From: Paraburkholderia sp. ZP32-5
GTDB lineage: Bacteria > Pseudomonadota > Gammaproteobacteria > Burkholderiales > Burkholderiaceae
DNA length: 64,000 nucleotides
Assembly: GCF_021390495.1 (NCBI RefSeq)
Contig: NZ_JAJEJP010000001.1
Coordinates: 2,108,001-2,172,000, forward strand
Direction of reading: 5' to 3'
In this document: piece after piece, positions 5,769 through 30,919 of the stretch
Position numbering within the stretch: position 1 is the stretch's first letter
How the letters are laid out: each line of letters opens with the position of its first letter
Notes under the pieces: generated by a model
Told to the model about the DNA's origin: nothing
What the model saw: only the letters and a program-made list of their open reading frames with translations
Database searches by the model: none
Made by a program: the position numbers and the translations under genes

Positions 5769-6173
5769 CCCGGCGAGAGAGTGGAGCGTCGCTTCGTCTG
5801 CAAGTGCTCGAAGCGCGTCATGTTGTTGAAGAACCGGGGCGAGTCTAGAAAGGCCAATATCGAACGTCGATCAAACCAGCCGCATATCACTTATAGATTC
5901 GATTCATGAGCGTCGGGGCGCGCGGCTAATACGGCCGCGAACCCGCATGCACGCTCGATTTGCGGGGATGCTCCTGGTAAATCCTTTAGGCCGCTCGGTA
6001 GTTGCCAGCAGATGTCTGGGGCATTGGAGCCTTGGTCGCGGAAATTTGTTTGCGTACGCTGGCTCGACTCACCCTCGTCCGCGTGCATGCGGCAGGCCAT
6101 GACTGCAACGACTGCAGCGACCGCAACGACCAAGTTCGCGCTCACAACACGATCGACCCATCGGAGAACCAGG
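5769..6173. promoter_or_regulatory. Divergent intergenic region, porin / MFS carrier
   Basis: A 405-bp stretch without a convincing gene. The right half contains the shared element described separately at 5971-6001. A candidate promoter follows at 6032 (TTGGTC) and 6055 (TACGCT) with 17 bp between. The left half is less GC-rich and probably holds the leftward porin promoter. Nothing else was recognised. Confidence 0.5.
5971..6001 (+). promoter_or_regulatory. Shared iac-type upstream element, copy A
   Basis: The core CTGGTAAATCCTTTAG (5974-5989) is followed by a GC-rich arm. The 31-bp block matches copy B upstream of iacG at 25 of 31 positions. CTTTAG starts at 5984 and the -10-like TACGCT starts at 6055, exactly 71 bp later. 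It lies about 170 bp before the MFS start and probably binds the same activator as the iac promoters. Confidence 0.55.
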
Positions 6174-7595
6174 ATGACCCCCAGCGTAACCCCCGCACGA
6201 CGCTATACGTACGAGTGGTACGTCGTGCTGATCTGCATGCTTGCCTATGTCTTTTCATTCGTCGACCGCCAGGTGCTCGCGCTGATGATCGAGCCGATCA
6301 AGCGCGATCTGCATCTGACCGACACGCAGTTCAGCCTGCTGCAAGGCTTCGCGTTCTCGCTGTTCTACGCGGTGATGGGCATCCCCCTCGCCTACCTCGC
6401 CGATCGCTTCGCGCGGCCGCGGATCATCGCGGCGGGCATCGCGCTATGGAGCGTCGCGACCGCGACCTGCGGAATCAGCCAGAACTTCGTGCACATGTTC
6501 GTTTCGCGGATGAGCGTCGGCGTGGGCGAAGCGTCGCTGTCGCCCGGCACTTACTCGATGCTCGCCGACTACTTCCCGAAGGAGAAACTCGGCCGCGCGG
6601 CCGGCGTCTATTCGCTCGGCTCGTTCATCGGCGGCGGCATTGCGTTTCTGATCGGCGGCTATGTGATTGCGCTGCTGAAGCAGGCTTCGATGATCACGCT
6701 GCCGCTCGTCGGCGCGGTGCATGGCTGGCAGGTCACGTTCTTTATCGTCGGGTTGCCGGGCCTTGCCGTCGCGCTGCTGTTTATCCTCACGGTGCGCGAT
6801 CCGCAGCGCAAGGGGCTCGTGCAGGACGCGAGCGGCAACGCGCGGCGCGTATCGCTCGCCGATTCCGCGCGCTTTATCCGCTCGCACGGCAAGACGTTTT
6901 TTTGCCACTACATCGGCTTTTCGTTCTACGCGATGACGCTGTTCTGCCTGATGAGCTGGACGCCCGCGTTCTATATCCGCCACTTCGGCATGTCGCCGGT
7001 GCAGGCGGGTTATACGCTCGGCACGATCCTGCTGGTCGCCAATACGACCGGCGTGTTCTGCGGCGGCTGGCTCAACGACTGGCTGCTGCGCCGCGGCCGC
7101 GCGGACGGTCCGATGCTCGCCGGCTGTATCGGCGCGGCGGCGATGGTGCTGCCGGCGGCCGCGTTCACGCAGGTCGACAGTCTCAGTCTGTCGCTGACGC
7201 TGCTGGTGATCGCGATGTTCTTCGCGTCGTTCCCGATGCCGACCTCGACCGCCGCAATGCAAACGCTCGCGCCGAATCAGATGCGAGCGCAGATTGCCGC
7301 GGTGTTTCTGCTGGTGTCGAACCTGATTGGTCTCGGCATCGGCACCACGCTCGTCGCGCTGCTGACGGACAAGGTCTTCGGCTCGCCGCTCGCGGTCGGT
7401 CATTCGATGTCGATCATCAGCCTGGCTGCCGCACTGCTCGCGACCGTGCTGCTGGGATTCGGCTGCCGTCAGTTCCGTTTGAGCATCGAGCGCGAGCAGC
7501 GTCACGCGCAGAGCGCTGATGCAAGCGGGCGCGCGCTGGGTGCGGCAGATGACGTCGATGCCGTGGATGCGGCACTGAACGCGACGCGCGCCTAA
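6174..7595 (+). CDS. MFS transporter (spinster/ACS-like)
   Basis: A 473-residue polytopic carrier with about twelve transmembrane segments. TM1 starts at YEWYVVLICMLAYVFSFVDR, and the RDLHLTDTQFSLLQGFAFSL pattern with loop motif LADRFARP marks the MFS family. The start at 6174 is preferred because GGAG lies 7 bp upstream and no conserved sequence precedes it; a longer in-frame reading back to 6012 lacks support. The upstream promoter shares the iac element, so the substrate may be IAA or a related indolic acid. That is inference from regulation, not from sequence family. Confidence 0.9.
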   Translation: MTPSVTPARRYTYEWYVVLICMLAYVFSFVDRQVLALMIEPIKRDLHLTDTQFSLLQGFAFSLFYAVMGIPLAYLADRFARPRIIAAGIALWSVATATCGISQNFVHMFVSRMSVGVGEASLSPGTYSMLADYFPKEKLGRAAGVYSLGSFIGGGIAFLIGGYVIALLKQASMITLPLVGAVHGWQVTFFIVGLPGLAVALLFILTVRDPQRKGLVQDASGNARRVSLADSARFIRSHGKTFFCHYIGFSFYAMTLFCLMSWTPAFYIRHFGMSPVQAGYTLGTILLVANTTGVFCGGWLNDWLLRRGRADGPMLAGCIGAAAMVLPAAAFTQVDSLSLSLTLLVIAMFFASFPMPTSTAAMQTLAPNQMRAQIAAVFLLVSNLIGLGIGTTLVALLTDKVFGSPLAVGHSMSIISLAAALLATVLLGFGCRQFRLSIEREQRHAQSADASGRALGAADDVDAVDAALNATRA

Positions 7596-7880
7596 GCGCG
7601 TGCCTTCAAGCATATGCACTGAGTGACTGCGCTGAGCATGCGATCCAGGCGCACCTCCTGAGCGCATCCCACGCTATGCCCAAGGGGGCATTTCGCGCCG
7701 GCCACGACCCGAGCGCGAGCCCCCTATCATGCAGCAGATTCATATCACCCATTTTTGGCCCGAATTTGACCCACGGTTTGACGGCTCATATCGTTGCCCC
7801 ATGCCGCGACGACGTGACGCAACCGCGTCGCCCGGCATCTCCACAGAGCGGACCCTTCAACTTCGTGCCTGGCCCTCACC

Positions 7881-9236
7881 ATGAACCCTGACGCCGTGAA
7901 TTCTCAACTGAGCGCTGCCGTCGCCACCCATCGGCTCGCCCGGCCGAGCAGCGCAGCCCGTCGAGCCGTGATCACGGCCGTGCTCGGGCAGATCCTCGAG
8001 TGGTACGACTTTTTTCTCTATGGCACCGCGGCTGCGCTGGTGTTCGGCAAGCTCTTTTTTCCGGTCGGCAACGATCCGTTGATCGGCACCATCGCGGCCT
8101 TCGGCGGCTTTACCGTGGGCTTTATCGCGCGGCCGATCGGCGGCGTGCTGTGCGGGCATCTGGGCGACCGCTACGGCCGCAAGGTCGTGATGATGCTCAC
8201 GATGCTGACGATGGGCACCGCGACCGTGCTGATGGGCGCACTGCCCACCTATCAGCAGATCGGCATCATGGCGCCGGTGCTGCTCGTGATCCTGCGCATT
8301 CTGCAGGGTCTCGCGGCGGGCGGCGAATGGAGCGGCAGCATCCTGATGATTCACGAAAGCGCGCCGGCCTCGCGGCGCGGCGCGTTGGCCGCATGGAGCC
8401 CGAGCGGCGCCGCGTTCGGCTTCGTGCTGTCCACGGCAGCCTTCATGCTCGCGCAGCACCTGTCGCACGACGATTTCCTTAGCTGGGGCTGGCGCGTGCC
8501 GTTTCTCGGCAGCGCGGCGCTCGTCGTGCTCGGTTTGTGGATGCGCCGCTCGGTCAGCGAAAGTGCCGCCTTCGCGGAGGTCAAAGCAACGCGCAACGAA
8601 AGCCGCATGCCGGTGATCGACGTGCTGCGGCAGTGTCCGCGCGAGGTGCTGACCGTGTTCGGTCTGCGCTTCGGCGAAGGTGGCGCGTCCTACATCTTCT
8701 TCGCGTTTTCGCTGGCGTATGGCCAGTTCATCGGAATCAAATCGTCGTGGATTCTCGGCGGACTCACGCTGTCGATGTTTCTGATGATCCCCGTGTCGCT
8801 GCTGGTCGGACACATCACCGACAAGGTCGGCCGCAAGCCGGTGTATCTGGTCGGCGCGATCGCGATGGTGCTGGTCGCGTGGCCTTTCTTCGCGCTGCTC
8901 GGCTCGGGCGAGTACTGGAAAGTGATGACCGCGCTGCTGCTCGCGAACAGCCTGACGCTCGGCATTCTCGAAGGCGCGCAACCCGCCTTTATCAGCGAGC
9001 TGCTGCCGGTGCATCTGCGTTATTCGGGGCTCGGTATCGGGCGAGAGATTTCCTCGGTGCTCGGCGGCGGCCTGTCGCCGATGATCGCCACCGGCCTGCT
9101 TGCGTATTACCGAAGCGCGGCACCCGTCGCGATCTATCTCGGCGCGCTCGGCCTGACTACCGTGATCGCCACCTGCTGCGCCCGCGAAACCTGGCCCAAG
9201 GCGTTGCGCGACGCGGCACGCCAGCAAGCCGAATGA
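7881..9236 (+). CDS. MHS-family MFS transporter (ProP/ShiA-like)
   Basis: A 451-residue metabolite:H+ symporter with about twelve TM helices. Family signatures are the N-terminal GQILEWYDFFLYGTAAAL, the loop GHLGDRYGRKVVMM and the GLAAGGEWSGS motif of TM4-5. This family imports carboxylates such as shikimate, citrate, alpha-ketoglutarate or aromatic acids. It is 58 bp upstream of the IacA-like oxygenase gene and probably in its operon, which suggests an aromatic or indolic acid substrate. It closely resembles the carrier at 21511 in the iac cluster. The 285 bp before it hold no supported gene. Confidence 0.9.
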   Translation: MNPDAVNSQLSAAVATHRLARPSSAARRAVITAVLGQILEWYDFFLYGTAAALVFGKLFFPVGNDPLIGTIAAFGGFTVGFIARPIGGVLCGHLGDRYGRKVVMMLTMLTMGTATVLMGALPTYQQIGIMAPVLLVILRILQGLAAGGEWSGSILMIHESAPASRRGALAAWSPSGAAFGFVLSTAAFMLAQHLSHDDFLSWGWRVPFLGSAALVVLGLWMRRSVSESAAFAEVKATRNESRMPVIDVLRQCPREVLTVFGLRFGEGGASYIFFAFSLAYGQFIGIKSSWILGGLTLSMFLMIPVSLLVGHITDKVGRKPVYLVGAIAMVLVAWPFFALLGSGEYWKVMTALLLANSLTLGILEGAQPAFISELLPVHLRYSGLGIGREISSVLGGGLSPMIATGLLAYYRSAAPVAIYLGALGLTTVIATCCARETWPKALRDAARQQAE

Positions 9237-9294
9237 AGTCTTCGGTCGGGCACCCACGTCCGACCCGTTTCAAATTTTTCCAGAGGTAATCCGT

Positions 9295-10512
9295 ATGCAT
9301 GCCCTGCAAACCGCCAGCACCGATGCCTGTGGCTCCGATCTGCGGATCATCGCCGCGCAGGACGACTATCCCGAGTACTCCGGGCCGCTTTCGCTCGACG
9401 CGCTGGTCGCCGAGGTCGAGCGCCGCCGCGATGACTTCGACGCACTGTCGCACGTGCCTCGCGACATGGTCGCGAAAATGAAGCGCGCGGGGATTTTCCG
9501 GGCCAGCACGCCGAAGCGCTTCGGCGGCGATCCGCTGCCGCCGCACCAGTTTCTCGCGATGCTCGAACGCATTGCGATTGCCGACGGCTCGACCGCGTGG
9601 GTCGCCGCGTTCGGCTCGGCGAACACCTACCTGGCAGCATTGCCGCTCGACACGCAGGAAAAACTCTACGAGAACGGACCCGACCAGGTGTTCGCCGGCG
9701 GCCTTTATCCGCTGCAAAAAGCGCAGCGCGCACCGGGCGGCTTCCGGGTCAGCGGGCAATGGCGCTTTGCGAGCGGCTGCAAGGGCGCGGACTGGATCGG
9801 CGTGGGCATCGGCGGCACGCCCGCCAATGCCGGCGAGCCGAACGCCGGCAAGCCGTTCACGGCCGTGTTTCCGGCGAGCGAAGTCGAAATCGTCGACAAC
9901 TGGAAGGTGGTTGGCATGCAAGGCACCGGCAGCCACGACCTGCGACTGAAGGACAAATTCGTCGACGAGGCCTGGACCTTCGTGCGCGGTGGCGCCGCAC
10001 TGATCGACGAACCGCTCTATCGCTACCCGGCCGTCGCCTATCAGGCGCAGGTGCATGCGAGCGTGAACATCGGTCTCGCGCGCGCCGCGCTCGATCTGCT
10101 CGCGGGCATGTCGGGTGTCACGCAAACCACCACCGGCGCACCGCGTCTCGCCGATCGCGCCTACTACCGCTCGGGCCTCGCGCAAGCCGAGGCGCGTCTG
10201 CGCAGTGCGCGCGCGTTCTTCTTCGAGTCCGCCGAAGCGGCATGGCAAACGATTCTCGCCGGTGACCCGATCGCACCGGCCGAGGCGAATATTCTGCGCC
10301 TGAGCGCGACGCACGCCGCGCACACCTGCGCGGATGTCGTGATGGACGCCTACAAGATGGCGGGCATCGGCGCGATCTATCAGGAAAGCCGCTTGCAACG
10401 GCTCGTTCGCGATTCGATCGTCGTGACGCAGCACGCGTTTCTCGGCGAAGGCACCTATGACGCGTCCGGTGCATTGTTCGTCGGCATTGCGCCGGTGACG
10501 CCCTACCCTTGA
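9295..10512 (+). CDS. IacA-like flavin-dependent oxygenase (acyl-CoA dehydrogenase fold)
   Basis: A 405-residue protein of the acyl-CoA-dehydrogenase-fold, two-component flavin monooxygenase group (HpaB/HsaA/IacA type). It aligns along its whole length with the iac-cluster protein at 24701. Shared motifs include LSHVPRD, TPKRFGGD, IADGSTAWVA, FASGCKGADW, GMQGTGSHDL and TQHAFLGEG. Enzymes of this type hydroxylate an aromatic or indole ring using reduced flavin supplied by a partner reductase. A flavin reductase follows 18 bp downstream. A good RBS (AGAGGTAA) precedes the ATG. The substrate is unknown, but close similarity to IacA suggests an indolic or related acid. Confidence 0.88.
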   Translation: MHALQTASTDACGSDLRIIAAQDDYPEYSGPLSLDALVAEVERRRDDFDALSHVPRDMVAKMKRAGIFRASTPKRFGGDPLPPHQFLAMLERIAIADGSTAWVAAFGSANTYLAALPLDTQEKLYENGPDQVFAGGLYPLQKAQRAPGGFRVSGQWRFASGCKGADWIGVGIGGTPANAGEPNAGKPFTAVFPASEVEIVDNWKVVGMQGTGSHDLRLKDKFVDEAWTFVRGGAALIDEPLYRYPAVAYQAQVHASVNIGLARAALDLLAGMSGVTQTTTGAPRLADRAYYRSGLAQAEARLRSARAFFFESAEAAWQTILAGDPIAPAEANILRLSATHAAHTCADVVMDAYKMAGIGAIYQESRLQRLVRDSIVVTQHAFLGEGTYDASGALFVGIAPVTPYP

Positions 10513-10530
10513 GCGAGGAGTCCCGCTGCG

Positions 10531-11049
10531 ATGACCGACGATCAAACGCGACTGAGCTTTCGCAACGCCATGGCCTCGCTCGCGGCGGCCGTCAACGTGA
10601 TCACCACCGACGGCCCGCGCGGACGCTGCGGCATCACCGCCAGCGCGGTCTGCTCGGTGACCGATACACCGCCGACGATGCTCGTCTGCGTCAATCAGTC
10701 GAGCTATGTGCATGACGTGTTGCGCGATAACCGGCAACTGTGCATCAACGTGCTCGGTGCGCAAGGCCAGGAACTGGCGCGCGTTTTCGCGGGCATGACC
10801 GGTTGCTCGATGGCTGAGCGCTTCGAGCGCTGCGAGTGGCAGCCGGGCCGGCTGGCGATGCCGGTGCTCGCCGATGCGATCGCGAGTCTCGAAGGCACGG
10901 TGTGCGAAAACAGAACGGTGGGCTCGCACTCGGTGTTCTTCGTGAGGATCGAGCACATCGCGTTGCGCGACGAAGGCGACGGTCTGATCTATTTCGACCG
11001 GCAATTTCACCGGCTCGCGCGCGCGGCCGTGACTTCGGTGGCGGGGTGA
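10531..11049 (+). CDS. Flavin reductase (HpaC/IacG-like)
   Basis: A 172-residue NAD(P)H:flavin oxidoreductase of the FMN-binding split-barrel family. Typical motifs are MASLAAAVNVITTDGP, CGITASAVCSVTDTPPTMLV and a C-terminal GSHSVFFVRIEHI...YFDRQFHRL. It would supply reduced flavin to the oxygenase encoded immediately upstream. A GAGGAG Shine-Dalgarno lies upstream of the ATG. It is a clear paralogue of the protein at 29962 (IacG), so the window holds two oxygenase/reductase pairs. Confidence 0.9.
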   Translation: MTDDQTRLSFRNAMASLAAAVNVITTDGPRGRCGITASAVCSVTDTPPTMLVCVNQSSYVHDVLRDNRQLCINVLGAQGQELARVFAGMTGCSMAERFERCEWQPGRLAMPVLADAIASLEGTVCENRTVGSHSVFFVRIEHIALRDEGDGLIYFDRQFHRLARAAVTSVAG

Positions 11050-11051
11050 GC

Positions 11052-11753
11052 ATGCAGGTCTGTCTGTTTCTCGAAGCGACGGCCGGTGCCGAATCGCCGC
11101 TCGATGCCTGCGCGCTGATGCACGCCGCGAGCGATATCGCGGGGCTGGCTCAACTGATCGTGCACGAGCCGGTATCGCATCAGCATGGTGCGGATACGGC
11201 ACGAGACCCAGCGACGCCGTCGTGCATGCTGCAATGGTATTTCGATGACCTCGACGCGCTGGAACGCGCGCTCGCACCATCAGGCAGCGTCGATCGCGCA
11301 CTGCGGCGCGCCGCGTTCGCGACGCTCGACGAATCCACGTTCTCGCAGCAGGTGATGGCCGTGCGCAAGCTCTCGCCGCCCGAGGCGATGCCGATGAACG
11401 GTTGCGAGCAGCGATGCACGTATATGGTCGCTTACGAAGGCCCCGCCGACGATTTCGATGCGTGGCTCACGCATTATTTGCGGCATCATCCGCCGTTGAT
11501 GCTGCAATTGCCGGCGCTGCGCGAGCTGGAAATCTACACGCGCATGGACTATTGCAGCGGCCTGCCCTTCGCGCGCACCAACCCGATGCAGCGCAATAAG
11601 GTCGTATTCGACGATGCACGCGCGCTCGCGGATGCACTCGCGTCACCGGTGCGGGACGCGATGCGTCGCGACTTCCACGCGCTGCCGCCGTATAGCGGTG
11701 CAACTCCGCATTACCCAATGCGCAGCATTTACGGTAAATTCGCGGGACCGTGA
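11052..11753 (+). CDS. EthD-like dimeric alpha/beta-barrel protein
   Basis: A 233-residue protein starting 2 bp after the flavin reductase stop, so translationally coupled. The C-terminal half (about residues 125-230) has the EthD/dimeric alpha-beta-barrel pattern: a YMVAYEGPADDFDAWLTHYL strand-helix, HHPPLMLQLPALRELEIYTR, and an RNKVVFDD region. The N-terminal half looks like a weaker, diverged copy of the same fold. EthD-type proteins accompany oxygenases and may handle reactive products. Its function here is unproven, and the assignment rests on pattern and context. Confidence 0.7.
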   Translation: MQVCLFLEATAGAESPLDACALMHAASDIAGLAQLIVHEPVSHQHGADTARDPATPSCMLQWYFDDLDALERALAPSGSVDRALRRAAFATLDESTFSQQVMAVRKLSPPEAMPMNGCEQRCTYMVAYEGPADDFDAWLTHYLRHHPPLMLQLPALRELEIYTRMDYCSGLPFARTNPMQRNKVVFDDARALADALASPVRDAMRRDFHALPPYSGATPHYPMRSIYGKFAGP

Positions 11754-11870
11754 CCGGCCCTGGTATTGACGCCGACTTGCCGCCGACTTGCCGTCGATGC
11801 ATGGGCAAACGCCGCATGATTGCCTCAAGCGCCCCGGCACGGGCATCGCTCCCCGTTCGAGACGCAGTGC

Positions 11871-12791
11871 ATGAGCCAACCCAACCTTGCCGGCACCGAT
11901 CTGAACCTGTTGCGGGTCTTCCTCGCAATCTGGGATCTGCGCAGCCTGACCGCCGCCGGAGAGCGGCTGGCGATCACGCAACCCGCGGTCAGTCATGCAC
12001 TGCGGCGGCTGCGCACACTGTTCGAAGATCCGCTGTTCGTGCGCACGCCCAACGGCATGGTGCCCACCGATGCCGCGTTTCGTCTGTATCCGCCGCTCGC
12101 GCAGGCGTTCGCGATCATCAGCGACGCCGTCCAGCAACTGGCGAAATTCGATGCCGCCACCGCGCAGCGCGTGTTCCGCATCTCGATGTCGGACATGTCG
12201 GAGTTCTACTTTCTGCCGCCGCTGCTCGCGATGCTCGACCGCGACACGCGCGGCATTCGCATCGAAGTGACCAATGTGCCGGTGGAATCGGTGAGCGCCG
12301 CGATGCGCGCCGGCGAGATCGATCTCGCGCTCGGCTATGTGCCGGGGCTCGACGCCGGTTGCGTGACGCAAACGCTATTCATCGACGAGCATGTGTGCGT
12401 GGTGCGCGCCGGCCATCCGCTGCGAAAAACCAAACCGACCCGCGAGGACCTGGCGGCATTGCGCTATGTGTATGCGAGCACCAATGCGACCGGTCACCGG
12501 ATGGTCGAACAGTGGCTCGACGAGTTGAATCTGAAGCGCGAAGTGGTGCTCAGGCTGCCTCATTTCGTTGTCGCGCCCGAGATCGTCATGCATACCGATC
12601 TGGCGATCATCTTCCCGAAGAGCATTGCGCGCCGTTTCAATCGCGGCAAGGCGTTTCGCATTCTGCCGCTGCCGTTCAAGCTGCCGCCTATCGAGATCCA
12701 GGTGCACACGCATACGCAATTCGCGGCCGATCCGGGCATCGCGTGGTTGCGGCGAACGCTCTATGACATGTTTCATCAGCCGCAGCGCTAG
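11871..12791 (+). CDS. LysR-family transcriptional regulator
   Basis: A 306-residue LTTR with the HTH at about residues 10-70 (LNLLRVFLAIWDLRSLTAAG, then LAITQPAVSHALRRLRTLF, DPLFVRT) and an effector-binding domain after it. It belongs to the same NodD-like subgroup as the regulators at 3553 and 18094. It follows the second oxygenase operon on the same strand and is its likely regulator. The ATG at 11871 is chosen because the LTTR domain starts nine residues later; an upstream in-frame ATG at 11820 lacks support. Confidence 0.9.
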   Translation: MSQPNLAGTDLNLLRVFLAIWDLRSLTAAGERLAITQPAVSHALRRLRTLFEDPLFVRTPNGMVPTDAAFRLYPPLAQAFAIISDAVQQLAKFDAATAQRVFRISMSDMSEFYFLPPLLAMLDRDTRGIRIEVTNVPVESVSAAMRAGEIDLALGYVPGLDAGCVTQTLFIDEHVCVVRAGHPLRKTKPTREDLAALRYVYASTNATGHRMVEQWLDELNLKREVVLRLPHFVVAPEIVMHTDLAIIFPKSIARRFNRGKAFRILPLPFKLPPIEIQVHTHTQFAADPGIAWLRRTLYDMFHQPQR

Positions 12792-17273: not shown

Positions 17274-17660
17274 TCACGACTGTGCCCCATCGACGTCGTG
17301 ACCGTCATCGGCTGCGTCTTCGCACGCGTTGGGTAGCTGTTGCAGCAGTTGCGGGAGAGCCGTCTGCACGGTATCCCATACGACATCGAGGTTAATGTCG
17401 AAGTAGCCGTGAGCAATACGGTTGCGCATGCCGCGCATACTGCGCCACGGTATTTCGGGGTGTGCTTGCGCGAACGCGGCGTAGCCATCCATCACCTTCG
17501 TGGCTGCCTCGCCAATGATGATGAGGCTCATGACGACTGCCTGCTGGGTGCGCTTGTCGACAAGAAAGTCGTCCTTGCCCTGGTCTTCCACGAAACTGCA
17601 CGCGTTCGCCGCGGCCTGTTGCATGTGGTCGAGATAATCAGAAAGCCGATTCTCGCTCAT
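17274..17660 (-). CDS. hepT: HepT-like ribonuclease toxin
   Basis: A 128-residue HEPN-family protein. The RX4HXY ribonuclease motif is present as RNRIAHGY near residue 82, after the helical SLIIIGEAATKVMDGY segment typical of HepT/DUF86. In the characterised HepT-MntA systems this is the toxin, and the cognate MntA modifies the motif Tyr by AMPylation. Its start overlaps the stop of the mntA-like gene by 4 bp, the usual arrangement of the pair. Confidence 0.9.
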   Translation of the reverse strand: MSENRLSDYLDHMQQAAANACSFVEDQGKDDFLVDKRTQQAVVMSLIIIGEAATKVMDGYAAFAQAHPEIPWRSMRGMRNRIAHGYFDINLDVVWDTVQTALPQLLQQLPNACEDAADDGHDVDGAQS

Positions 17661-17947: not shown

Positions 17948-18093
17948 GGGCATTCCCTTTGATCGAAATGGATTGATGATATTCAATCAGGAATAGCGTT
18001 TCAAGAACTGTTTCCGAAATCGCCAGGACCTGATTTCCGTGTCGTGCCGCACGCGCAAAATGGCTTTACGAGCCTATTTCAAGGCCATGCCAC

Positions 18094-22914: not shown

Positions 22915-24471
22915 TCAACCCGGCGGTTGGCCCGCGCCCGCGAGCGGCAGCGAGAAGCTGCATTCGAGGCCCCGGTTCGGCGCAGGCGTGGCCCAGATTT
23001 CGCCGCCATGCCGCGTGACGATGTTCTTGCACAACGACAGGCCGATGCCGTTGCCGCCCGCCTTCGACGACGAAAAGCCGTCGAACAGCCGGCCATGCGC
23101 GTCGATGGGCACGCCCGGGCCGTTGTCGATGACCTGCACCACCGCATGCGCGTCGCGCAGGCTCGTGACGAGCCGCAGTTCGCGGCGGCGCGGTCGCGTT
23201 GGACGTCCCGCGCCGGTCTGCGTGACGGTGGCGTGCTTATCGGCGGCATCGACCGTCTGCGCCATTTCCGCGGCCAATGCATCGATCGCATTGAACGCGA
23301 GGTTCAGCACCACCTGACCGATCAGCACGCGTTCGACGAACACCGGCAGCGGTGCACTCGCCTGCTCGATCGTCACCGTCACGTCCGCTTCGCGCGCGCG
23401 CAATTCGATGAAATACGCGGCGTCCGCGAGCACGTCGCGCAAGTCGGCGTGGGTCTCGCTCGGCTCGCGTTTGACGATGTATTCGCGCACGCTCTTGATG
23501 ATGTGCGCCGCGTGTTCCGCCTGGCGTTCGGCGCTACGCAGGCCCCAGATCGTGTCTTCGACCGGCGCCTGCTGTTCGAGACGCCGGATCGCCCCTTCCA
23601 GAAAATTGCGCACGGCCGCGAGCGGCTGGCTCAGTTCGTGTGCAATCGCCGTGGCCATCTCGCCCATTGCGTTGTAACGCCCTGCGTATTCGAGCATGCG
23701 CGCTTCGGTGCGGCGCGCTTCCTCGATGCCGACTTCGTCGGAGATATCGCGAAAGTGGATCAGCAACCCATCGAGATCGTCTTCGATCACGAGCCGCCGG
23801 CAAGTGATGCGCAGCCAGCATGCGCTGCCGTCGCGCCGGATCATCCGGTAGCGGCGCGGCGACGACGGGTGCTGCGGCGGTGCGCTGCCGAGCTGTTCGG
23901 CGAGCAGTTCGCGACTGCGCTCGCCGCAGTAATCGAATATCGAGCCGGGCGTGTGATGTGCGGCGAGACCCAGCAGGCGGCGCCCCGAATCGCTGATGAA
24001 CTCGACCGCGCCCGCATGCGTGAGCACCGCGACACCTTCGCTCAGATCCTGCATGAACTCGCGCAGCCGTGTTTCATAGCGCCGCAGCGCCTGGCGCACC
24101 GATTCCTCCGCGCTGATGTCGCGAAACTGCACCATCACGACCGCGCGCTCACGCAGCGGCACATAGGTCGCGATCGCCTCGGACAGCATGTCCTGCCCGG
24201 TGCGCGAGCGATAACACCATTCGTAGCCTTGCGGCCCGTCGGTGATCGATCGGTCCATTGCCGCCACCGCGATTTCGCGCTGATATTTCGGCTCCGGGCG
24301 GGTCATGTCGCGCGCCTTCAGCGGCAGCAGTTCCTCGATCGAAAACCCGAGCGCGATACACGCGGCGCGATTGGCCCAGACGATCGCTTTCGTGTCCGCA
24401 TCGTGCAGCAGCACACACATCGTCAACGCATCGAGCAGGCGGCGGAAATCGTCTTCGGTGGGGTACGTCAT
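22915..24471 (-). CDS. iacS: PAS-domain sensor histidine kinase (IacS-like)
   Basis: A 518-residue soluble sensor kinase with no TM segment. There are two PAS domains (about residues 5-120 and 130-250), a dimerisation domain with the H-box AHELSQPL (His278), an N-box NLAFNAID (about 389-396), and G-boxes DNGPGVP (449) and NGIGLSL (474). The domain order resembles FixL/StyS-type kinases sensing cytoplasmic ligands. It is divergent from iacA, while the only response regulator nearby is at the other end of the iacABIHE operon. The two thus bracket the operon they probably control in response to IAA. Confidence 0.88.
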   Translation of the reverse strand: MTYPTEDDFRRLLDALTMCVLLHDADTKAIVWANRAACIALGFSIEELLPLKARDMTRPEPKYQREIAVAAMDRSITDGPQGYEWCYRSRTGQDMLSEAIATYVPLRERAVVMVQFRDISAEESVRQALRRYETRLREFMQDLSEGVAVLTHAGAVEFISDSGRRLLGLAAHHTPGSIFDYCGERSRELLAEQLGSAPPQHPSSPRRYRMIRRDGSACWLRITCRRLVIEDDLDGLLIHFRDISDEVGIEEARRTEARMLEYAGRYNAMGEMATAIAHELSQPLAAVRNFLEGAIRRLEQQAPVEDTIWGLRSAERQAEHAAHIIKSVREYIVKREPSETHADLRDVLADAAYFIELRAREADVTVTIEQASAPLPVFVERVLIGQVVLNLAFNAIDALAAEMAQTVDAADKHATVTQTGAGRPTRPRRRELRLVTSLRDAHAVVQVIDNGPGVPIDAHGRLFDGFSSSKAGGNGIGLSLCKNIVTRHGGEIWATPAPNRGLECSFSLPLAGAGQPPG

Positions 24472-24700
24472 GATCCGATCTGAGCAGAAGCTAGGTCCAC
24501 GAACGATAGCATCCGCGCCCCGCGCGGCGATACTGAAGATTTCTTTAGACGCGCGGGGAACGCTACTTAAAAATGCGCGCGGCGTCCCAATTGATGCCGT
24601 TTTGTGGCTTTCTTAGACTGGGTTCCAGACTGGACGGACGCGGGCAAACGCGCCGTCCAACAACCCAAACCATGCGGTTCAGGAACTCAGGAGACACACC
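24472..24700. promoter_or_regulatory. iacS-iacA intergenic region with iacA promoter (copy D element)
   Basis: On the + strand a diverged copy of the shared element occurs at 24533-24560 with CTTTAG at 24543. The hexamers TTGATG (24591) and TAGACT (24614) are separated by 17 bp and form the best sigma70-like promoter in the set. The distance from CTTTAG to the -10 start is 71 bp, the same as at the other three promoters. AGGAG precedes the iacA ATG. Confidence 0.6.
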
Positions 24701-25909
24701 ATGCCATCAGTTGCGACCGCCGTCGCGCCCTTCAGCGACTCTTGCGTCGATACTTACGTCACACCGCCGGCCGGCCGTCTGTCGCTCGATGAAGTCATCG
24801 ACGTGGTGGCCGCGCGCCGCGAAGAATTCGAGCGGCTTTCGCACGTGCCGCGCGACGTGATCGAGCTGTTCAAGCGCGCGGGCATCTACCGTGCCGCGAC
24901 ACCGAAGCGCTTTGGCGGCGACGCGCGCGCGCCGGGCGAATTTCTCGAGATGATCGAGCGCATCGCGGTGGCCGACGGCTCCGCCGCGTGGGTCGCGAGC
25001 TTCGGTTCGGCCAACGTGTACCTCGCCGCGCTGCCGCTCGAAACGCAGGCGCAAATCTATGCAGGCGGTCCGGATCAGGTGTTCGCGGGTGGCCTGTTTC
25101 CGGTGCAAGCGGTGCAGGCCGTCGAAGGCGGCTGGCGCGTGAACGGCACATGGAAGTTCGCGAGCGGCTGCAAGGGCGCCGACTGGCTCGGCGTCGGCAT
25201 CAGCACCGGCGATGCCGCGAATGGCGGTGGGAACAGCGGTGCCAACAAGCCGCGCACCGCGGTGTTTCGCCCCGAGCAGGTCGAGATCGTCGAGAACTGG
25301 AACGTGGTCGGCATGCAAGGTACCGGCAGTCACGACCTGCGCATGACCGAGCAGATCGTCAGCGACGACTGGACCTTCGTGCGCGGCGGCACGCCGTGCG
25401 TCGACGAGCCGTTGTATCGCTATCCGACCGTCGCCTACGCGGCCCAGGTGCTCGCGGTCGTGAACCTCGGCCTCGCGCGCGCCGCGCTCGACGTCGCGAA
25501 CCATATGTCGGGTGGCCGCCGCACGACGACTGGCGCACCGCAACTCGCGGACCGCGCGTACTACCGGATCGAACTCGCGAAGGCCGAGGCGCAGTTGCGT
25601 TCGGCGCGCGCGTTCTTCTACGAATCGACCGACAGCGTGTGGCAGTCGATCCTCGCCGGCAACCCGGTCACGCCCGAGCAGGTCAGCCTGCTGCGCCTCG
25701 CCGCGACGCAGATCGCGCGCGAAGGCGCCGACGTCGTGCAGCGCGCGTATCGTCTCGGCGGCACGATGGCGATCTATCGCACGCATCCGCTGCAGCGCCT
25801 CGTGCGCGACTCGATGGTGGTCACGCAGCATGCGTTCCTCGGCGAAGGCAATTTCGACGGCGCCGGCGCGGTATTCGTCGGTGTGCCGCCCATTCCCGGT
25901 TATCTGTAA
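24701..25909 (+). CDS. iacA: IAA-oxidising flavin-dependent oxygenase (IacA)
   Basis: A 402-residue flavoprotein with the acyl-CoA dehydrogenase fold, of the two-component monooxygenase type. Motifs are LSHVPRDVIELFKRAG, TPKRFGGD, VADGSAAWVA, FASGCKGADW, GMQGTGSHDL and TQHAFLGEG. IacA in Pseudomonas putida 1290 and P. phytofirmans catalyses the first oxidation of indole-3-acetic acid using reduced flavin, with IacG as partner. The gene heads iacA-B-I-H-E, a conserved order that makes the identification strong. The start has a clear AGGAG. The protein at 9295 is a paralogue. Confidence 0.92.
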   Translation: MPSVATAVAPFSDSCVDTYVTPPAGRLSLDEVIDVVAARREEFERLSHVPRDVIELFKRAGIYRAATPKRFGGDARAPGEFLEMIERIAVADGSAAWVASFGSANVYLAALPLETQAQIYAGGPDQVFAGGLFPVQAVQAVEGGWRVNGTWKFASGCKGADWLGVGISTGDAANGGGNSGANKPRTAVFRPEQVEIVENWNVVGMQGTGSHDLRMTEQIVSDDWTFVRGGTPCVDEPLYRYPTVAYAAQVLAVVNLGLARAALDVANHMSGGRRTTTGAPQLADRAYYRIELAKAEAQLRSARAFFYESTDSVWQSILAGNPVTPEQVSLLRLAATQIAREGADVVQRAYRLGGTMAIYRTHPLQRLVRDSMVVTQHAFLGEGNFDGAGAVFVGVPPIPGYL

Positions 25910-25938: not shown

Positions 25939-26343
25939 ATGTCGGATACTTCCGCGAACCCGTCCCTGCCGCTGCGCGTGCTGTTCTGCTGCGGCGTCAC
26001 GCAAAACTTCTTCGATCTGCCGCGCGAGAAGATCGGCGAAGTGTGGCAGGCGTACGGCAAGATGCTGGCCGCGATCGAAGCGATGGACGGCGTCAAGGTG
26101 CTCGGCATCATGGACGATGACCGCCTCGTGGTCGGCCAGGCAAGCGGCGCACCGTGGACCTTCTACATCATGGCCGACGTCGCGGACTTCGACACCACGG
26201 TGGCGGTCTGCAATCTGTACCGTACGACGCCGGTCGGCGAGTACAACCTGTGGCGCTACGGCAAGATCGAAGCGCGCGTGGGACGCGCGCTCGCCGTGCC
26301 GCCCGCAGTGCCGGCTGCGGTGTCGTCTGCCGCGAATGCGTGA
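25939..26343 (+). CDS. iacB: IacB-like small protein
   Basis: A 134-residue cytosolic protein of unclear biochemical role. Visible features are an N-terminal VLFCCGVTQNFF strand with two Cys, a helix LPREKIGEVWQAYGKML, and a WTFYIMADVADFDTTVAVCN strand-helix. These suggest a compact alpha/beta (ferredoxin-like) fold. The RBS AAGGAA lies 8 bp before the ATG and the gene follows iacA by 29 bp. The position directly after iacA is that of IacB in iac operons; the C-terminal tail is Ala/Pro-rich and probably disordered. Confidence 0.8.
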   Translation: MSDTSANPSLPLRVLFCCGVTQNFFDLPREKIGEVWQAYGKMLAAIEAMDGVKVLGIMDDDRLVVGQASGAPWTFYIMADVADFDTTVAVCNLYRTTPVGEYNLWRYGKIEARVGRALAVPPAVPAAVSSAANA

Positions 26344-26347
26344 CGCC

Positions 26348-26887
26348 ATGACGACCACCGACGCAACGCGCACGATTGCCGCGCTCGAAGCGCGCCTCGC
26401 CGCACTCGAAGGTGCCGCGGCCGCACGCCGCACGATGGCGCGCTACATGGCGCTGTGCGACGTGCCGAGCGGCGCGCTCGACGGCGAAGCGCTCGAACGC
26501 CTGTTCACCGCCGACGCGGTGTGGGAAGGCATCGGCCCGCAATACACGAGCAAGTTCGGGCGGCTCGAAGGACGCGAGGCGATCGTCGCGATGCTCGCGC
26601 GCTATCTGCCGCCCACGCCGCACTTCGCGACCAACGTGCATTTCCTGACGTCCGAGAGCATCGATATGCCGAGTCCGACGCATGCGAAGGGACGCTGGAT
26701 CATGTTGCAGGCGTCTGGCTATGTCGATGAGCGCGCAGAGCTGATCGGCGCGCGGCTGGAGGTCGATTTCGTGCCCGCGCCCAATGCATCCGATACGTCG
26801 GAATGGCTGATCGCGCACTTTCGCACCGAGCGTCTGTTCGATGCGCCGTGGCGCGTGTCGCCGCGCCCTGCTCCGCTGTCCGAATGA
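26348..26887 (+). CDS. iacI: IacI-like SnoaL/NTF2-fold protein
   Basis: A 179-residue SnoaL-like protein. It opens with a long helix (TIAALEARLAALEGAAAARR), then RYMALCDVPSGALDGEALER and the strand-rich ADAVWEGIGPQY, LEGREAIVAMLARYL and HFLTSESIDM parts of an NTF2 fold. The fold is shared with small enzymes and dioxygenase beta subunits. Its exact step in IAA breakdown is not evident from sequence; the name rests on operon position between iacB and iacH. An alternative ATG at 26336 would overlap iacB. Confidence 0.8.
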   Translation: MTTTDATRTIAALEARLAALEGAAAARRTMARYMALCDVPSGALDGEALERLFTADAVWEGIGPQYTSKFGRLEGREAIVAMLARYLPPTPHFATNVHFLTSESIDMPSPTHAKGRWIMLQASGYVDERAELIGARLEVDFVPAPNASDTSEWLIAHFRTERLFDAPWRVSPRPAPLSE

Positions 26888-26927
26888 CCCGTCTCACGGA
26901 ACCCAAGGAACCAAAGGAACCGAATCG

Positions 26928-28052
26928 ATGAGCGCTTTGATCAGTAGTTTCTCGCTTGGCGGCGACGGCCCCACGATCGCCATCAAGGACACCATCGACA
27001 TTGCCGGCATGCGCACGACCGGTGCCAGCCGCGCGCTCGCCGATGCCGCGCCCGCGCAACAGCATGCGCAAGTCGTGCAGTTGCTGCTCGACGCGAACTG
27101 GCGGATCGTCGGCAAGGCCAACATGCACGAACTCGCGTTCGGCATGACCGGCATCAACGACTACACCGGCACGCCGGTCAATCCGCAGGACGCGACGCGC
27201 ATTCCGGGCGGCTCATCCAGCGGCTCGGCTTCGGCAGTCGGCCTCGGGCTCGCGGATGCGGCGCTCGGCACCGATACCGGAGGCTCGATTCGCGGCCCCG
27301 CCGCGTGCTGCGGCGTGACCGGCCTGAAGCCGACGTTCGGTCGCGTGTCGCGGCGCGGCGTCGCGCCCGCTGAATCGACGCTCGATTGCGTCGGTCCATT
27401 CGCGCGCGAGATGCGGATGATCGTCGACACGATGGCCGTGATCGCGCCGGGATTCGATCGCGACGCCGCGTTGAAACAGGTGGCGACATGCCGCGTCGGC
27501 GTCGCGAATGTCGATGCGCAAGCGGCTTTGCTCACCGCGGTCGCACGCGCGCCGCAGCGCGCGGGTTTTACGTCACAGGCCATCGAACTCACGGGCCTCA
27601 TCGAGGCATTCCAGGCGGGCATCGCGATCATCAACGCGGAAACGTATGCCGCGTTCGGTCATCTCGTCGATAGCGGCAAGCTCGGCGCCGATCTCGACGC
27701 GCGTTTGCGCGCCGCTTTGGCGACGACGCCGGAGCAGTTGAGCGCGGCCGAGCGCGTGCGCCGCAGCTTCACCGAGGCGGTCGATCGCGCGCTCGATAGT
27801 GTCGATGTGATCGTGATGCCGACGCTGCCCGCATTGCCGATCACGCTCGATGAAGCGCGGCGCGGCGTGCCGGTGATTGCGATGTCATCGCTGATTCGGC
27901 CGTTCAATCTCAGTGGTCATCCGGCGTTGAGCCTGCCGCTGCCGCTCGACGGTACGCCGTTGAAAGCCGGCCTGCAGATCATCGGACGCCATGGCGCCGA
28001 CGAGCAGGTGTGCGCGGCTGCGGCCGCGTTTGAAGCTGCGCTTGCTGGCTGA
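26928..28052 (+). CDS. iacH: Amidase-signature hydrolase (IacH-like)
   Basis: A 374-residue amidase-signature enzyme. The Ser-cisSer-Lys triad is apparent: Lys20 in AIKDTID, the Ser-rich loop PGGSSSGSASAV (residues 94-104), and the nucleophile Ser120 in GTDTGGSIRGPA. Such enzymes hydrolyse amide bonds, and IacH would act on an amide or lactam intermediate formed after indole ring oxidation. The start at 26928 is preferred because a strong RBS (AAAGGAAC) lies upstream and homology begins there. It is shorter than GatA-type amidases, as expected for IacH. Confidence 0.88.
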   Translation: MSALISSFSLGGDGPTIAIKDTIDIAGMRTTGASRALADAAPAQQHAQVVQLLLDANWRIVGKANMHELAFGMTGINDYTGTPVNPQDATRIPGGSSSGSASAVGLGLADAALGTDTGGSIRGPAACCGVTGLKPTFGRVSRRGVAPAESTLDCVGPFAREMRMIVDTMAVIAPGFDRDAALKQVATCRVGVANVDAQAALLTAVARAPQRAGFTSQAIELTGLIEAFQAGIAIINAETYAAFGHLVDSGKLGADLDARLRAALATTPEQLSAAERVRRSFTEAVDRALDSVDVIVMPTLPALPITLDEARRGVPVIAMSSLIRPFNLSGHPALSLPLPLDGTPLKAGLQIIGRHGADEQVCAAAAAFEAALAG

Positions 28053-28103: not shown

Positions 28104-28847
28104 ATGTCCAGCAGAGTCGTTCTCGTTACCGGCGCGGCGCGCGGCCTCGGTGCCGTTATCGCCGCGCGTTTTCATGCAGCCGGCTACTGTGTCGCGCTCG
28201 GCGACATCGCCATCGAAGCGGCCAACGTAGTTGCGCGCGAGTTGAGCGCCGCCGGGTCGAGCGCGTTCGCGCTGAAGCTCGATGTCACGTCGAAGCAGGA
28301 TTTCGTCGATGCGCGCGATGCGATCGTCGCGCGCTGGGGCCGCATCGATGCGCTCGTCAACAACGCGGGGGCATCGAAAGTCGTGCCGGTGATGGACATC
28401 ACCGCCGAGCAGTTCGATCAGGTCATCGACGTCAACCTGCGCAGTGTGCTGTTCGGCTGCCAGGTCTTCGGCCGGCACTTCGCGAATCAGCGCGAAGGAC
28501 GCATCGTCAACATCGCGTCGCTTGCCGGCCAGAACGGCGGCTCCGCGACCGGCGCGCACTATGCGGCGGCCAAGGGCGGCGCGATTACGCTGACGAAGGT
28601 ATTCGCGCGAGACCTCGCCGCCTCGGGCGTGACGGTCAATGCGATCTCGCCGGGACCGCTCGATTTGCCGATCGTGCACGAAAGCGTGCCCGCGGAAAAA
28701 CTCGCGGCGGTAATCGCGAATATTCCAGCGGGACGTCTGGGTGCCGCCGATTACATCGCCGATGCCGCCGTTCTGCTCGCGTCAGGCAATGCGTATTTCG
28801 CCAACGGCGCGTGCTGGGACATCAATGGCGGCCTGTATATGCGGTAA
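28104..28847 (+). CDS. iacE: Short-chain dehydrogenase (IacE-like)
   Basis: A 247-residue classical SDR. The cofactor motif TGAARGLG is at residues 9-16, NNAG near 90, and the catalytic Ser-Tyr-Lys in NIASLAGQNGGSATGAHYAAAK. It would catalyse an NAD(P)-dependent oxidation or reduction of a hydroxylated indole-acetate intermediate. It is the last gene of the iacABIHE operon; a terminator stem follows 13 bp after the stop. The AAGGAA RBS is 14 bp before the ATG. Confidence 0.9.
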   Translation: MSSRVVLVTGAARGLGAVIAARFHAAGYCVALGDIAIEAANVVARELSAAGSSAFALKLDVTSKQDFVDARDAIVARWGRIDALVNNAGASKVVPVMDITAEQFDQVIDVNLRSVLFGCQVFGRHFANQREGRIVNIASLAGQNGGSATGAHYAAAKGGAITLTKVFARDLAASGVTVNAISPGPLDLPIVHESVPAEKLAAVIANIPAGRLGAADYIADAAVLLASGNAYFANGACWDINGGLYMR

Positions 28848-28860
28848 CGCGTGAGTTGCT

Positions 28861-28885: not shown

Positions 28886-28951
28886 GATGCGACACGGCAC
28901 AAGCATCGCCGGTGCGCGTACGTCCATGGGCGCACGCGCATACACCCATTT

Positions 28952-29587
28952 TTACGGCGTATTCGTCGGCGCGTCCTGATCCCATACCGCCATCACGTCG
29001 CGCACGAGCGTCGCGATCGATGCGACGCCGAGCTTGTCCTTGATGCTCGCGCGATGCACGTCGACCGTCTTCACGCTGATATCGAGGTCCGCCGCGATGC
29101 GCTTGCTGCCCTTGCCGTCGATCACGCCACGCAGCACCTCGTTCTCGCGCGCGGTCAGCGAGTTGAGACGCTTGCGCAGATCGCGCCGCTTCTGGTCGGC
29201 CGCATGACGCTGCGTGGCGAGCTTCATCGCGCGTTGCACGCGATCGAGCATCTGCTGCGAGTTATAGGGCTTTTCGACGAAATCGATCGCGCCGTTCTGC
29301 AGCGCGCGCACCGACATCGGAATATCGCCGTGGCCGCTGACGAAAATGGTCGGCAACGTTGCGCCGCGACGGTTCAGTTCCGTCTGCACATCGAAGCCGC
29401 CTGTCTCCGGCATGCGCACGTCGAGCACCAGGCATGCGGGGATGTCCGGATCGAAGGCGCGCAGGAAGTCGCTTGCGCTGGCAAAGCCTTCCGACTTGAC
29501 GCCGACCGACTCCAGCAACCATGCCAACGAGGTGCGCATGCCGTTGTCGTCGTCGACGATATAGACGACCGGCGCGGGTAAAGTCAC
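28952..29587 (-). CDS. iacR2: FixJ/NarL-type response regulator (IacR2-like)
   Basis: A 211-residue response regulator. The receiver domain has the acidic pocket VDDD (residues 11-14), the phosphoacceptor Asp56 in LVLDVRMP, and the switch Lys in VEKPY. The C-terminal LuxR-type HTH has LTARENEVLRGVIDGKGSKR and VKTVDVHRASIKDKL. The GTG at 29587 is preferred because GGAG lies upstream at good distance and the receiver starts right after it; an in-frame ATG at 29650 would add 21 unconserved residues. It is the probable partner of IacS and the candidate protein for the shared upstream element. Confidence 0.88.
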   Translation of the reverse strand: MTLPAPVVYIVDDDNGMRTSLAWLLESVGVKSEGFASASDFLRAFDPDIPACLVLDVRMPETGGFDVQTELNRRGATLPTIFVSGHGDIPMSVRALQNGAIDFVEKPYNSQQMLDRVQRAMKLATQRHAADQKRRDLRKRLNSLTARENEVLRGVIDGKGSKRIAADLDISVKTVDVHRASIKDKLGVASIATLVRDVMAVWDQDAPTNTP

Positions 29588-29961
29588 TTGCTCTGTCTCC
29601 GTTCTGGTTATGTGCAAAATGCGTGCGAAACACGTGCGAGACACGTACAAAACGCGCGCGAGACGAGCGTTGTGCAGCCTCGTTTGATCGTCGCGTTATC
29701 GCAGTTTAAATTTAATCATAACCAGGCGAAAAAGCCCTGAAAAGCGGTGCCGCGTAGTATTTGCGCGGTAATTTCCCCAGGCGTGTCCGCGGTGCTCGCG
29801 TGCCTCCTGGTGAAACCTTTAGACGACTCGGGAGCGACGCCAGCGCGCGGGCGATTCGCGACAATTTTTTTCGCGCGATGCTTGCCGTACGCTTGAATCA
29901 TCGTTGGCGCGGCTCACGAAGTGTCTGTGATGTGAGACGAACGCCGATATCCAGGAAGGCA
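29588..29961. promoter_or_regulatory. iacR2-iacG divergent region
   Basis: A 374-bp region between divergent genes. The left third is AT-rich and probably holds the iacR2 promoter. The right part contains copy B of the shared element (29804-29834) and a TACGCT -10-like box at 29888. No further gene is supported. Confidence 0.5.
29804..29834 (+). promoter_or_regulatory. Shared iac-type upstream element, copy B
   Basis: The core CTGGTGAAACCTTTAG (29807-29822) includes the short inverted repeat GGT-GAA-ACC. CTTTAG starts at 29817 and TACGCT at 29888, 71 bp later. It lies about 130-160 bp upstream of iacG and is 25/31 identical to copy A. Confidence 0.6.
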
Positions 29962-30519
29962 ATGCCACTGCACGGAACAACACCCATGTCCAATTCATCT
30001 AGTGCGACCCCGCTTCCGGTGAGCGATGAGCGCAAGCAATTTCGCCAGGCGATGGCGCATCTGTCGGCGGCCGTCAACGTGATCACGACAGCCGGGCCGT
30101 TCGGCCGTTGCGGCATTACCGCAAGCGCCGTGTGTTCGGTGACGGATTCGCCGCCGACGCTGCTGGTTTGCCTGAACCGTTCCAGCGCGATGCACACCGT
30201 GTTCGCGGGCAATCGCCACATCTGCGTGAACGTGCTGCCCGGCGAACACGAACTGCTCGCGAAGCACTTTGCGGGGCTCACGCAACTGCCGATGGACGCG
30301 CGCTTCGATCTGCCGGTGTGGGACGAAGGCGAACACGGCGTGCCGGTGCTGCGCGATGCGCTCGCGAGCTTGCAGGGAGAGATCGTCGAGTGCAAGGACG
30401 TCGGCTCGCACTCGGTCATCTTCGTGGAGGCTACGCAGATTCGCGTGCGCAGCGATGGCGATGGGCTCGTGTACTTCGATCGCAATTTCCATCGGCTCGC
30501 GCGGCTGTGCGCTGCGTAG
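29962..30519 (+). CDS. iacG: Flavin reductase for IacA (IacG)
   Basis: A 185-residue split-barrel flavin reductase with MAHLSAAVNVITTAGPFG, CGITASAVCSVTDSPPTLLV and a C-terminal YFDRNFHRLARL. It would supply reduced flavin to the IacA oxygenase. The ATG at 29962 has AGGA 5 bp upstream; a second ATG at 29986 gives a 177-residue form closer in length to its paralogue at 10531. It is transcribed from its own promoter carrying the shared element, apart from iacA, so the two components appear to be co-regulated in trans. Confidence 0.9.
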   Translation: MPLHGTTPMSNSSSATPLPVSDERKQFRQAMAHLSAAVNVITTAGPFGRCGITASAVCSVTDSPPTLLVCLNRSSAMHTVFAGNRHICVNVLPGEHELLAKHFAGLTQLPMDARFDLPVWDEGEHGVPVLRDALASLQGEIVECKDVGSHSVIFVEATQIRVRSDGDGLVYFDRNFHRLARLCAA

Positions 30520-30919
30520 ACGTGAAGCCTCGCGCGTGCTGGTGAAACCTTTAGTTCGATGAGGACATTCACTATTCACGCTACCGCTCGCACGCATGGT
30601 TTGCTCGCGCGCTCACGGGTACCCTGCTCCTGAAGTGCTATGCGTCACATACGCTGTCGGGCAGCGAAGTCTGGGTGATTCGTCAGAAGAAAAAGCGCTT
30701 CATAGCAGGCTTCACGAGCGAAAAGCCGCCGGCGGTGCCGCTCGATATAGGTCGAAAAACCACAAGGAGACATCCCCCGCCGGCAAGCCAGGGCCATCCC
30801 CGACTTGCCAACCGGCATGGCGCGCTGCATCCTTCGCAGCAAATTAACCGACTCACTGGTCGGTGAAAAGAGGCCAGGCTTCACGCCCCCCGATCGATTT
30901 CGCGATTTATCCCACCAGC
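30520..30919 (+). promoter_or_regulatory. Long leader before the AraC gene, with element copy C and an orphan RBS
   Basis: This 400-bp region carries copy C of the shared element (CTGGTGAAACCTTTAG at 30539-30554), with a -10-like TACCCT at 30620, again 71 bp after the CTTTAG start. About 145 bp further on a strong Shine-Dalgarno-like AAGGAGA (30761-30767) is followed by no start codon at useful distance. This may mark the front end of a lost gene. No intact gene was found. Confidence 0.45.

Follow-up and report, generated by a model that had tools for sequence, protein, structure and literature searches.

A 16-bp operator at fixed spacing before four promoters of an auxin-degradation region in Paraburkholderia: a probable regulon of an IacS-type kinase and a FixJ-type regulator

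The iac genes, which serve the breakdown of the auxin indole-3-acetic acid (IAA), lie in a stretch of 64,000 nucleotides from Paraburkholderia sp. ZP32-5 (hereafter the window), in which the same short motif, CTTTAG, stands before four separate genes, always at the same distance from a -10-like hexamer. Does this arrangement define one regulon and, if so, which of the regulators encoded nearby reads it? IAA breakdown by bacteria can alter root growth, and iac genes are found in many Burkholderiaceae; an operator of fixed geometry would provide a direct test of auxin sensing in these bacteria, a prediction of the carrier that imports auxin, and a promoter from which auxin biosensors could be built. 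For comparative work, it offers a clean example of how helical phase constrains an activator site. We consider it highly probable that an IacS-type histidine kinase and a FixJ-type response regulator control these four promoters as one regulon, with the response regulator activating through a 16-bp operator.

On the + strand of the window, CTTTAG occurs five times (5984, 24543, 29817, 30549 and 50661), and on the - strand not at all. Four of these copies are followed exactly 71 bp later by a TAnnCT hexamer: TACGCT for 5984, TAGACT for 24543, TACGCT for 29817 and TACCCT for 30549. The initial annotation had listed the same positions and hexamers, which a recount found to be exact, and our gene calls agree with its statement that all four sites read rightward, before a major facilitator superfamily (MFS) gene, iacA, iacG and an AraC-family gene. 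It had also extended three copies to a longer shared sequence, two of them agreeing at 25 of 31 bases; we likewise read CTGGTRAAWCCTTTAG at three of the four sites, and the two are those at 5984 and 29817. The site before iacA, which is without the CTGGTRAA extension, has the highest degree of palindromy, CTGAAGATTTCTTTAG, with 6 of 7 half-site bases matching, compared to 2 or 3 at the other sites. Of the hexamers 17 bp upstream of the TAnnCT boxes (TTGGTC at MFS, TTGATG at iacA, TTTTTT at iacG, TGGTTT at araC), only TTGATG, and perhaps TTGGTC, would pass for -35 boxes. In 200 dinucleotide-preserving shuffles of the window, searched on both strands, CTTTAG with a partner at +71 was found once in a single shuffle and never in the other 199; over offsets of 10 to 199, none of the shuffles had two CTTTAG copies with an offset in common. 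The arrangement is thus far above chance.

We then asked whether motif and spacing are kept before orthologous genes. Among 398 genomes of the family, 135 had a match to the regulator at E 1e-50 or better; an alignment-based search in named genomes, of which the best 80 of 144 relatives were kept, gave 80 named Burkholderiaceae loci. These were scanned on both strands (1,567,470 bases) with a strict rule, CTTTAG with TAnnCT at +71 or +72. CTTTAG was present 242 times and had such a partner in 134 cases, and all 134 combinations lay within 450 bp upstream of iacG (69), iacA (64) or araC (1), while 108 control offsets gave a mean of 0.10 combinations per offset. This is the conservation in orthologous promoters on which the initial annotation had made its proposal depend. 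For iacG, 69 of 79 loci followed the strict rule (58 at spacing 71 and 11 at 72), with TACGCT as the hexamer in 66 and TAATCT in 3. For iacA, 64 of 73 loci did so (60 at 71 and 4 at 72), TAGACT being the hexamer in all 64; the nine misses were variants, with CTTTAT (L116, L118, L152), CCTTAC (L158, L159, L161, L162) or a spacing of 50 (L160, L163).

Two operator designs emerged when 133 unique sites were collapsed to 55 representatives, using an expression that drops left halves beginning with TA and, with them, most of the iacG sites at spacing 72. The typical iacA operator, CTRAAGATTTCTTTAG, is a 7-2-7 inverted repeat, and 6 or 7 of the 7 half-site bases match in 21 of 22 representatives with TAGACT. 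The second class, defined as any -10 hexamer other than TAGACT (mainly iacG, MFS and araC sites, and a few iacA sites with TACACT), keeps the right half CTTTAG, and the left half, in most cases, is degenerate (CTGGTRAA, TAGGTAAA or CTGGGGAA); in 27 of 33 only 2 or 3 of 7 bases match. These sites carry the box of positions -8 to -3 a second time 21 bp downstream, with an identity of 0.63 at shift 21 compared to a median of 0.24. In the window, this second box begins 13 bases past the C of CTTTAG.

Spacing points to a constraint of helical phase. Using the palindrome and TAGACT as a rule, 87 iacA promoters gave a spacing of 71 in 74 cases, 72 in 5 and 50 in 2 (L160 and L163), with no such pair in six (L071, L074, L075, L078, L081 and L118). 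The difference between 71 and 50 is 21 bp, or two helical turns, and at 50 the palindrome falls where the second box sits elsewhere. The operator centre is 73.5 bp upstream of the -10 box; with transcription starting 7 bases past that box, it would lie at about -85. Class I activators usually sit near about -64, and the operator centre is two helical turns above that position. An activator about 80 bp upstream of the start sites, at a constant spacing of 71 bp, had been proposed initially: the position agrees with this estimate, and 71 is the spacing of most promoters, but 72 occurs in some and 50 in two iacA promoters, and the element itself is a 16-bp site derived from a palindrome, with a second box in one class.

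The operator is rare outside this setting. Searched for in the 9.09-Mb genome with at most one mismatch, a 16-bp operator pattern based on the known sites, CTRRWRAWWYCTTTAG, matched nowhere but at the four window sites and on the opposite strand of the iacA palindrome; four other genome sites with two mismatches to CTGGTRAAWCCTTTAG had no partner at 50, 71 or 72. Exact matches to the broad pattern were found in 33 of 37 regulator-positive Paraburkholderia genomes and in 1 of 23 regulator-negative ones, where the lone match (G136) had no partner. The regulator-positive genomes without an exact match were G065, G150, G320 and G369; the iacA site reads CTAAAGAAATCCTTAC in G065 and G369 (L187, L083) and CTAAAGCTTTCTTTAG in G150 (L078). 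Among family-wide motif matches (loci L038-L066), seven had a partner, all of them in regulator-positive genomes, and the rest, including a decayed araC copy (L060), had none. Exact matches away from the regulator gene were also seen in regulator-positive genomes (G157:C7:271491, G157:C10:189966, G1068:C2:129808, G1070:C2:3457473 and G1091:C3:4590866), that of G1068 being without a partner at 50, 71 or 72; these are possibly extra regulon members or chance matches.

Which regulator reads the operator was assessed by co-occurrence. Presence was called at 58% identity for the regulator, 43% for the kinase and 50% for LysR1, the LysR-type regulator of the cluster (18094-19110, - strand, iacR type, divergent from iacC). 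Left out were identical upstream sequences, matches shorter than 100 residues or below 43% identity, and loci offering fewer than 330 bases. Under a looser site rule, every one of the 87 iacA promoters whose locus holds both regulator and kinase had the site (71 of 71 with the LysR gene, 16 of 16 without). Where the locus did not hold both, the site was present at 2 of 11 iacA promoters: L117, where the regulator is present, and L176, for which it is encoded in a neighbouring stretch, L073. Where it held neither, the count was 0 of 8 (L071, L175, L197-L201 and L204). The search for IacA was extended to 300 genomes of the order (new: G454 and G571) and 369 of the class (new: G1050). G571, from another family of the order, has a regulator of 62% identity, the kinase, and an iacA site at 71 with TACACT; the G454 stretch has neither regulator nor site, and G1050 has iacA without the site and no regulator found in the genome. 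In the window, regulator and PAS kinase both lie inside the iac cluster, each divergent from a target gene: the kinase (IacS type, PAS-PAS; 22915-24471, - strand) from iacA, and the FixJ/StyR-type regulator (28952-29602, - strand) from iacG. The choice of the NarL/FixJ-type regulator at 28952 as the obvious candidate, made in the initial annotation, is thus supported by the tracking of operator and regulator (87/87 compared to 0/8), the LysR gene not being required; the cognate kinase had gone unmentioned there. We conclude that the regulator encoded among the auxin-breakdown genes very probably binds the operator. Linear plasmids of Streptomyces and Rhodococcus (L253, L254, L204) also carry iac genes and regulator relatives (62% and 46-48%), with PAS kinase relatives in L253 and L254; the palindromes beside their iacA genes are weak relatives (scores 11.7-16.2), point away from iacA and have no partner at 50, 71 or 72.

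Other factors might bind the same element. LysR sites often lie at about -65, with further contacts, and the LysR box is T-N11-A, to which the T-N12-A frame of the palindrome comes close; the LysR1 gene, moreover, is found in most of the same clusters. That LysR1 binds the operator and activates the iac genes is nevertheless most improbable, as the operator does not track its gene. The operator is present at the 16 of 16 iacA promoters with both regulator genes and no LysR1 in the fetched locus. Five g3/g24 genomes that are 99-100% complete (G321, G087, G301, G370 and G286) lack a LysR orthologue (best identity 38-40%), and a search of G394 (78% complete) found none; in each of the six, a diverged operator still precedes iacA, with TAGACT at 71 or 72. 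Conversely, the LysR1-bearing locus L071 has no iacA site, L194 and L196 (LysR1, with iacA of the iacA2 type only) show none, and no strict combination precedes iacC, the gene divergent from LysR1. LysR1 as a required factor was rejected on these grounds. The AraC protein encoded at 30920, or a factor encoded elsewhere, is a similarly unlikely reader: the operator copy at the araC promoter could mean autoregulation, but the AraC orthologue was found in only 2 of 16 genomes, and genomes without araC keep the operators of iacA and iacG, while an unlinked factor would need to co-occur with regulator and kinase across the sampled lineages.

There is likewise little probability that the regulator binds but mainly represses, or that the conserved block reflects shared promoter ancestry and not one regulator. 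Repression has a precedent, since the relative StyR can repress from other sites, as described in part of PMC2442086; the upstream position, the phase at 50 and 71 and the weak core promoters, however, suit activation. As to ancestry, the iacG and MFS promoters do show extended similarity, but the iacA and iacG consensus sequences are alike in operator frame and spacing and differ largely in their flanks. An araC operator without a -10 in two species that give no araC orthologue also speaks against this reading.

Several observations weigh against activation by the two-component system. Three of the eight promoters counted as lacking both genes are not clean negatives, since a regulator relative of 51% is present in the locus of L071 and, for L197 and L204, the plasmid encodes relatives at another place; five clean ones are left, to which the later find G1050 is added. 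L078 (G150) has the regulator and, before iacA, the palindrome, but it lacks a TAnnnT partner at 50, 71 or 72, and its stretch holds no kinase. iacG is without a site in 10 of 79 named loci under the strict rule; under the looser one, 18 of the 90 iacG promoters whose locus holds both regulator genes are without it. The MFS gene is without the operator in stretches of Caballeronia and Trinickia and in some other loci examined. In the TAGACT class, shift 21 was outside the top five, so that a second box at iacA is unsupported by the repeat test. Finally, the TAnnCT boxes are weak -10 elements.

From the operator, its spacing, its conservation and its co-occurrence with the regulator, all read directly in the genomes, we infer binding, phosphorylation, signal, IAA response, start sites and direction of control as follows. 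The kinase would perceive IAA or a related signal, and the regulator, once phosphorylated, would dimerise and bind the 16-bp operator, whose ideal form is CTAAAGA-TT-TCTTTAG. At iacA, the strong palindrome (24533-24548, + strand, CTGAAGATTTCTTTAG, a near-perfect 7-2-7 inverted repeat; box 2 GGGAAC at 24556-24561) would be enough alone. At iacG (29807-29822, + strand, CTGGTGAAACCTTTAG), MFS (5974-5989, + strand, CTGGTAAATCCTTTAG, kept in Paraburkholderia relatives) and araC (30539-30554, + strand, CTGGTGAAACCTTTAG), the palindrome is degenerate; a second subunit or dimer probably binds, at most iacG and MFS promoters, to the left half-box that recurs 21 bp closer to the promoter. This second box is GGGAGC (29830-29835) at iacG, GGTAGT (5997-6002) at MFS and a poor AGGACA (30562-30567) at araC. 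The bound regulator would then recruit sigma-70 polymerase to promoters weak in -10 and -35: TTGATG (24591-24596) and TAGACT (24614-24619) with a 17-bp spacer at iacA, TTGGTC (6032-6037) and TACGCT (6055-6060) at MFS, a T-run (29865-29870) and TACGCT (29888-29893) at iacG, and TACCCT (30620-30625) at araC, all on the + strand. IAA oxidation (the iacA operon), the flavin reductase (iacG), the candidate carrier and the AraC regulator would thereby be switched on jointly. Read on the - strand, the iacA palindrome is turned towards iacS, whose start is about 67 bp away, and iacS may therefore be co-regulated or autoregulated.

The initial annotation had tied a carrier 18 kb away and an AraC gene to IAA catabolism. 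The link to the carrier is borne out. Orthologues of the MFS gene (6174-7595, + strand; Pfam MFS_1, best NCBIfam TIGR00893 below its cut-off) were found in 28 of 117 Paraburkholderia genomes, its own included, and 25 of the 28 have the operator at 71 or 72 under the looser rule. Two of the misses (L247, L249) have a different gene order, the gene lying between another MFS gene and iacF, and the third (L232) is from G1084, 85% complete and the sole genome of the 28 with no regulator found. MFS and regulator genes lie on different contigs in G1054, G1075, G1091, G1111 and G1113 (assemblies of 3 to 5 contigs), where control would therefore be in trans; the operator is kept before the MFS gene in such cases too. 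In G300 and G260 the MFS gene is beside iacF, while in the window a module of MFS2, iacA2, flavin reductase and LysR2, and other genes, intervene. Because of its regulon membership, the MFS protein is a candidate IAA uptake carrier. Five MFS loci share a further motif some 253 bases before the operator, which was dropped, as it was judged by eye to be the ribosome-binding region of the porin gene. The link to araC (30920-31858, + strand; best NCBIfam model EutR, below its cut-off) holds only where the gene exists: a search of 16 genomes gave orthologues in two (G374 and G300), both with the operator and TACGCT at 71 (L067, L091). In P. lycopersici (G260) and P. guartelaensis (G189), where no araC orthologue was found, an operator copy without a -10 follows iacG, mutated in the latter; this is what decay following the loss of araC would look like.

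Taken further, these data would mean that sequence alone reveals the complete auxin-sensing regulon of a dedicated bacterial two-component system, at a very low rate of false positives (9 Mb yield four sites, and one rule set serves a whole family). The regulon would use two kinds of operator, one consisting of a single strong palindrome and the other of a weak site assisted by a half-box that lies two turns closer to the promoter, and the MFS protein, whose gene is unlinked in several relatives, would import IAA specifically. We give this wider proposal about even chances.

The regulator belongs to a known type. Its best solved relative is 1yio, which we take to be StyR, residues 175, 176 and 179 of 1yio being K, V and H, as the passage cited next says of StyR. 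According to that passage of PMC5874301, StyR-like regulators recognise ATAAACN4GTTTAT, with K175, V176 and H179 as putative contacts. The system of the window resembles StyR, TodT, TmoT and TutB in its receiver domain and GerE/LuxR-type helix-turn-helix, its PAS kinase partner and its aromatic catabolic promoters, and, by the same passage, in the 6-N4-6 inverted repeat of the iacA operator with its TAAA-N6-TTTA core. It departs from the StyR/TodT consensus given there in the outer bases, CTAAAG in place of ATAAAC, and in that the core is found only in part of the iacA class. The aligned recognition residues are D, V and A instead of K, V and H, which suits a related but different operator. 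The kinase, PAS-PAS-HK, also differs from TodS, described as a seven-domain protein in the part of PMC4321377 consulted; its nearest solved chains include FixL kinase parts. The 7-2-7 arrangement of heptamers is that of NarL/NarP sites, and the iacA operator shares the inverted repeat, with a different heptamer.

Within IAA catabolism, a passage of PMC11630574 describes a LuxR-type regulator and IacS in the iac clusters of Paraburkholderia phytofirmans PsJN and four Pseudomonas strains as a putative two-component system; pairs of this kind are called LuxR and IacS in this text and in part of PMC7225977, from which the name used here for the kinase is taken. The pair in the window is of the same kind and serves the same pathway. 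In PsJN, the pair reportedly responds to IAA and a LysR protein to dioxindole acetate, a finding said to be that of Donoso in 2017. Compared to the passage on PsJN and Pseudomonas (PMC11630574), the window adds the operator, its spacing, the regulon, the distant carrier and araC. The operator was not described in the titles and abstract beginnings among the matches listed in our literature searches. The same article states, in the part seen, that a MarR-type IacR controls iac operons in P. putida, Acinetobacter and Enterobacter; the pathway is the same, but IacR is a repressor, whereas a two-component activator is proposed here. Klebsiella loci with an annotated MarR gene (L199, L200) had no site with a partner at 50, 71 or 72.

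The remaining genes of the cluster, named by comparison with published clusters, are as follows. Downstream of iacA (24701-25909, + strand, a flavin-dependent oxygenase) lie a SnoaL-domain gene resembling iacI (26117-26887), the amidase gene iacH (26841-28052) and the SDR gene iacE (28104-28847), then iacG (29962-30519, + strand, flavin reductase); iacC (19182), iacD (20288), a tautomerase gene (21005) and another MFS gene (21511) are further members. The second module (7881-12791) comprises MFS2, an IacA paralogue (64% identical), a flavin reductase and LysR2; its place is after iacG in P. nodosa, P. guartelaensis and P. lycopersici. No operator precedes the MFS2/iacA2 module in the window (7881-11049), nor any of 11 iacA2 promoters; a twelfth row (L073) was left out, being the edge of that genome's iacA, counted as iacA in L176. 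A HepT-like ribonuclease and nucleotidyltransferase pair of toxin-antitoxin type (17274-17986, - strand) lies inside the iac region, and an RHS-repeat protein of 1617 residues is encoded just past the regulon (33509-38362, - strand).

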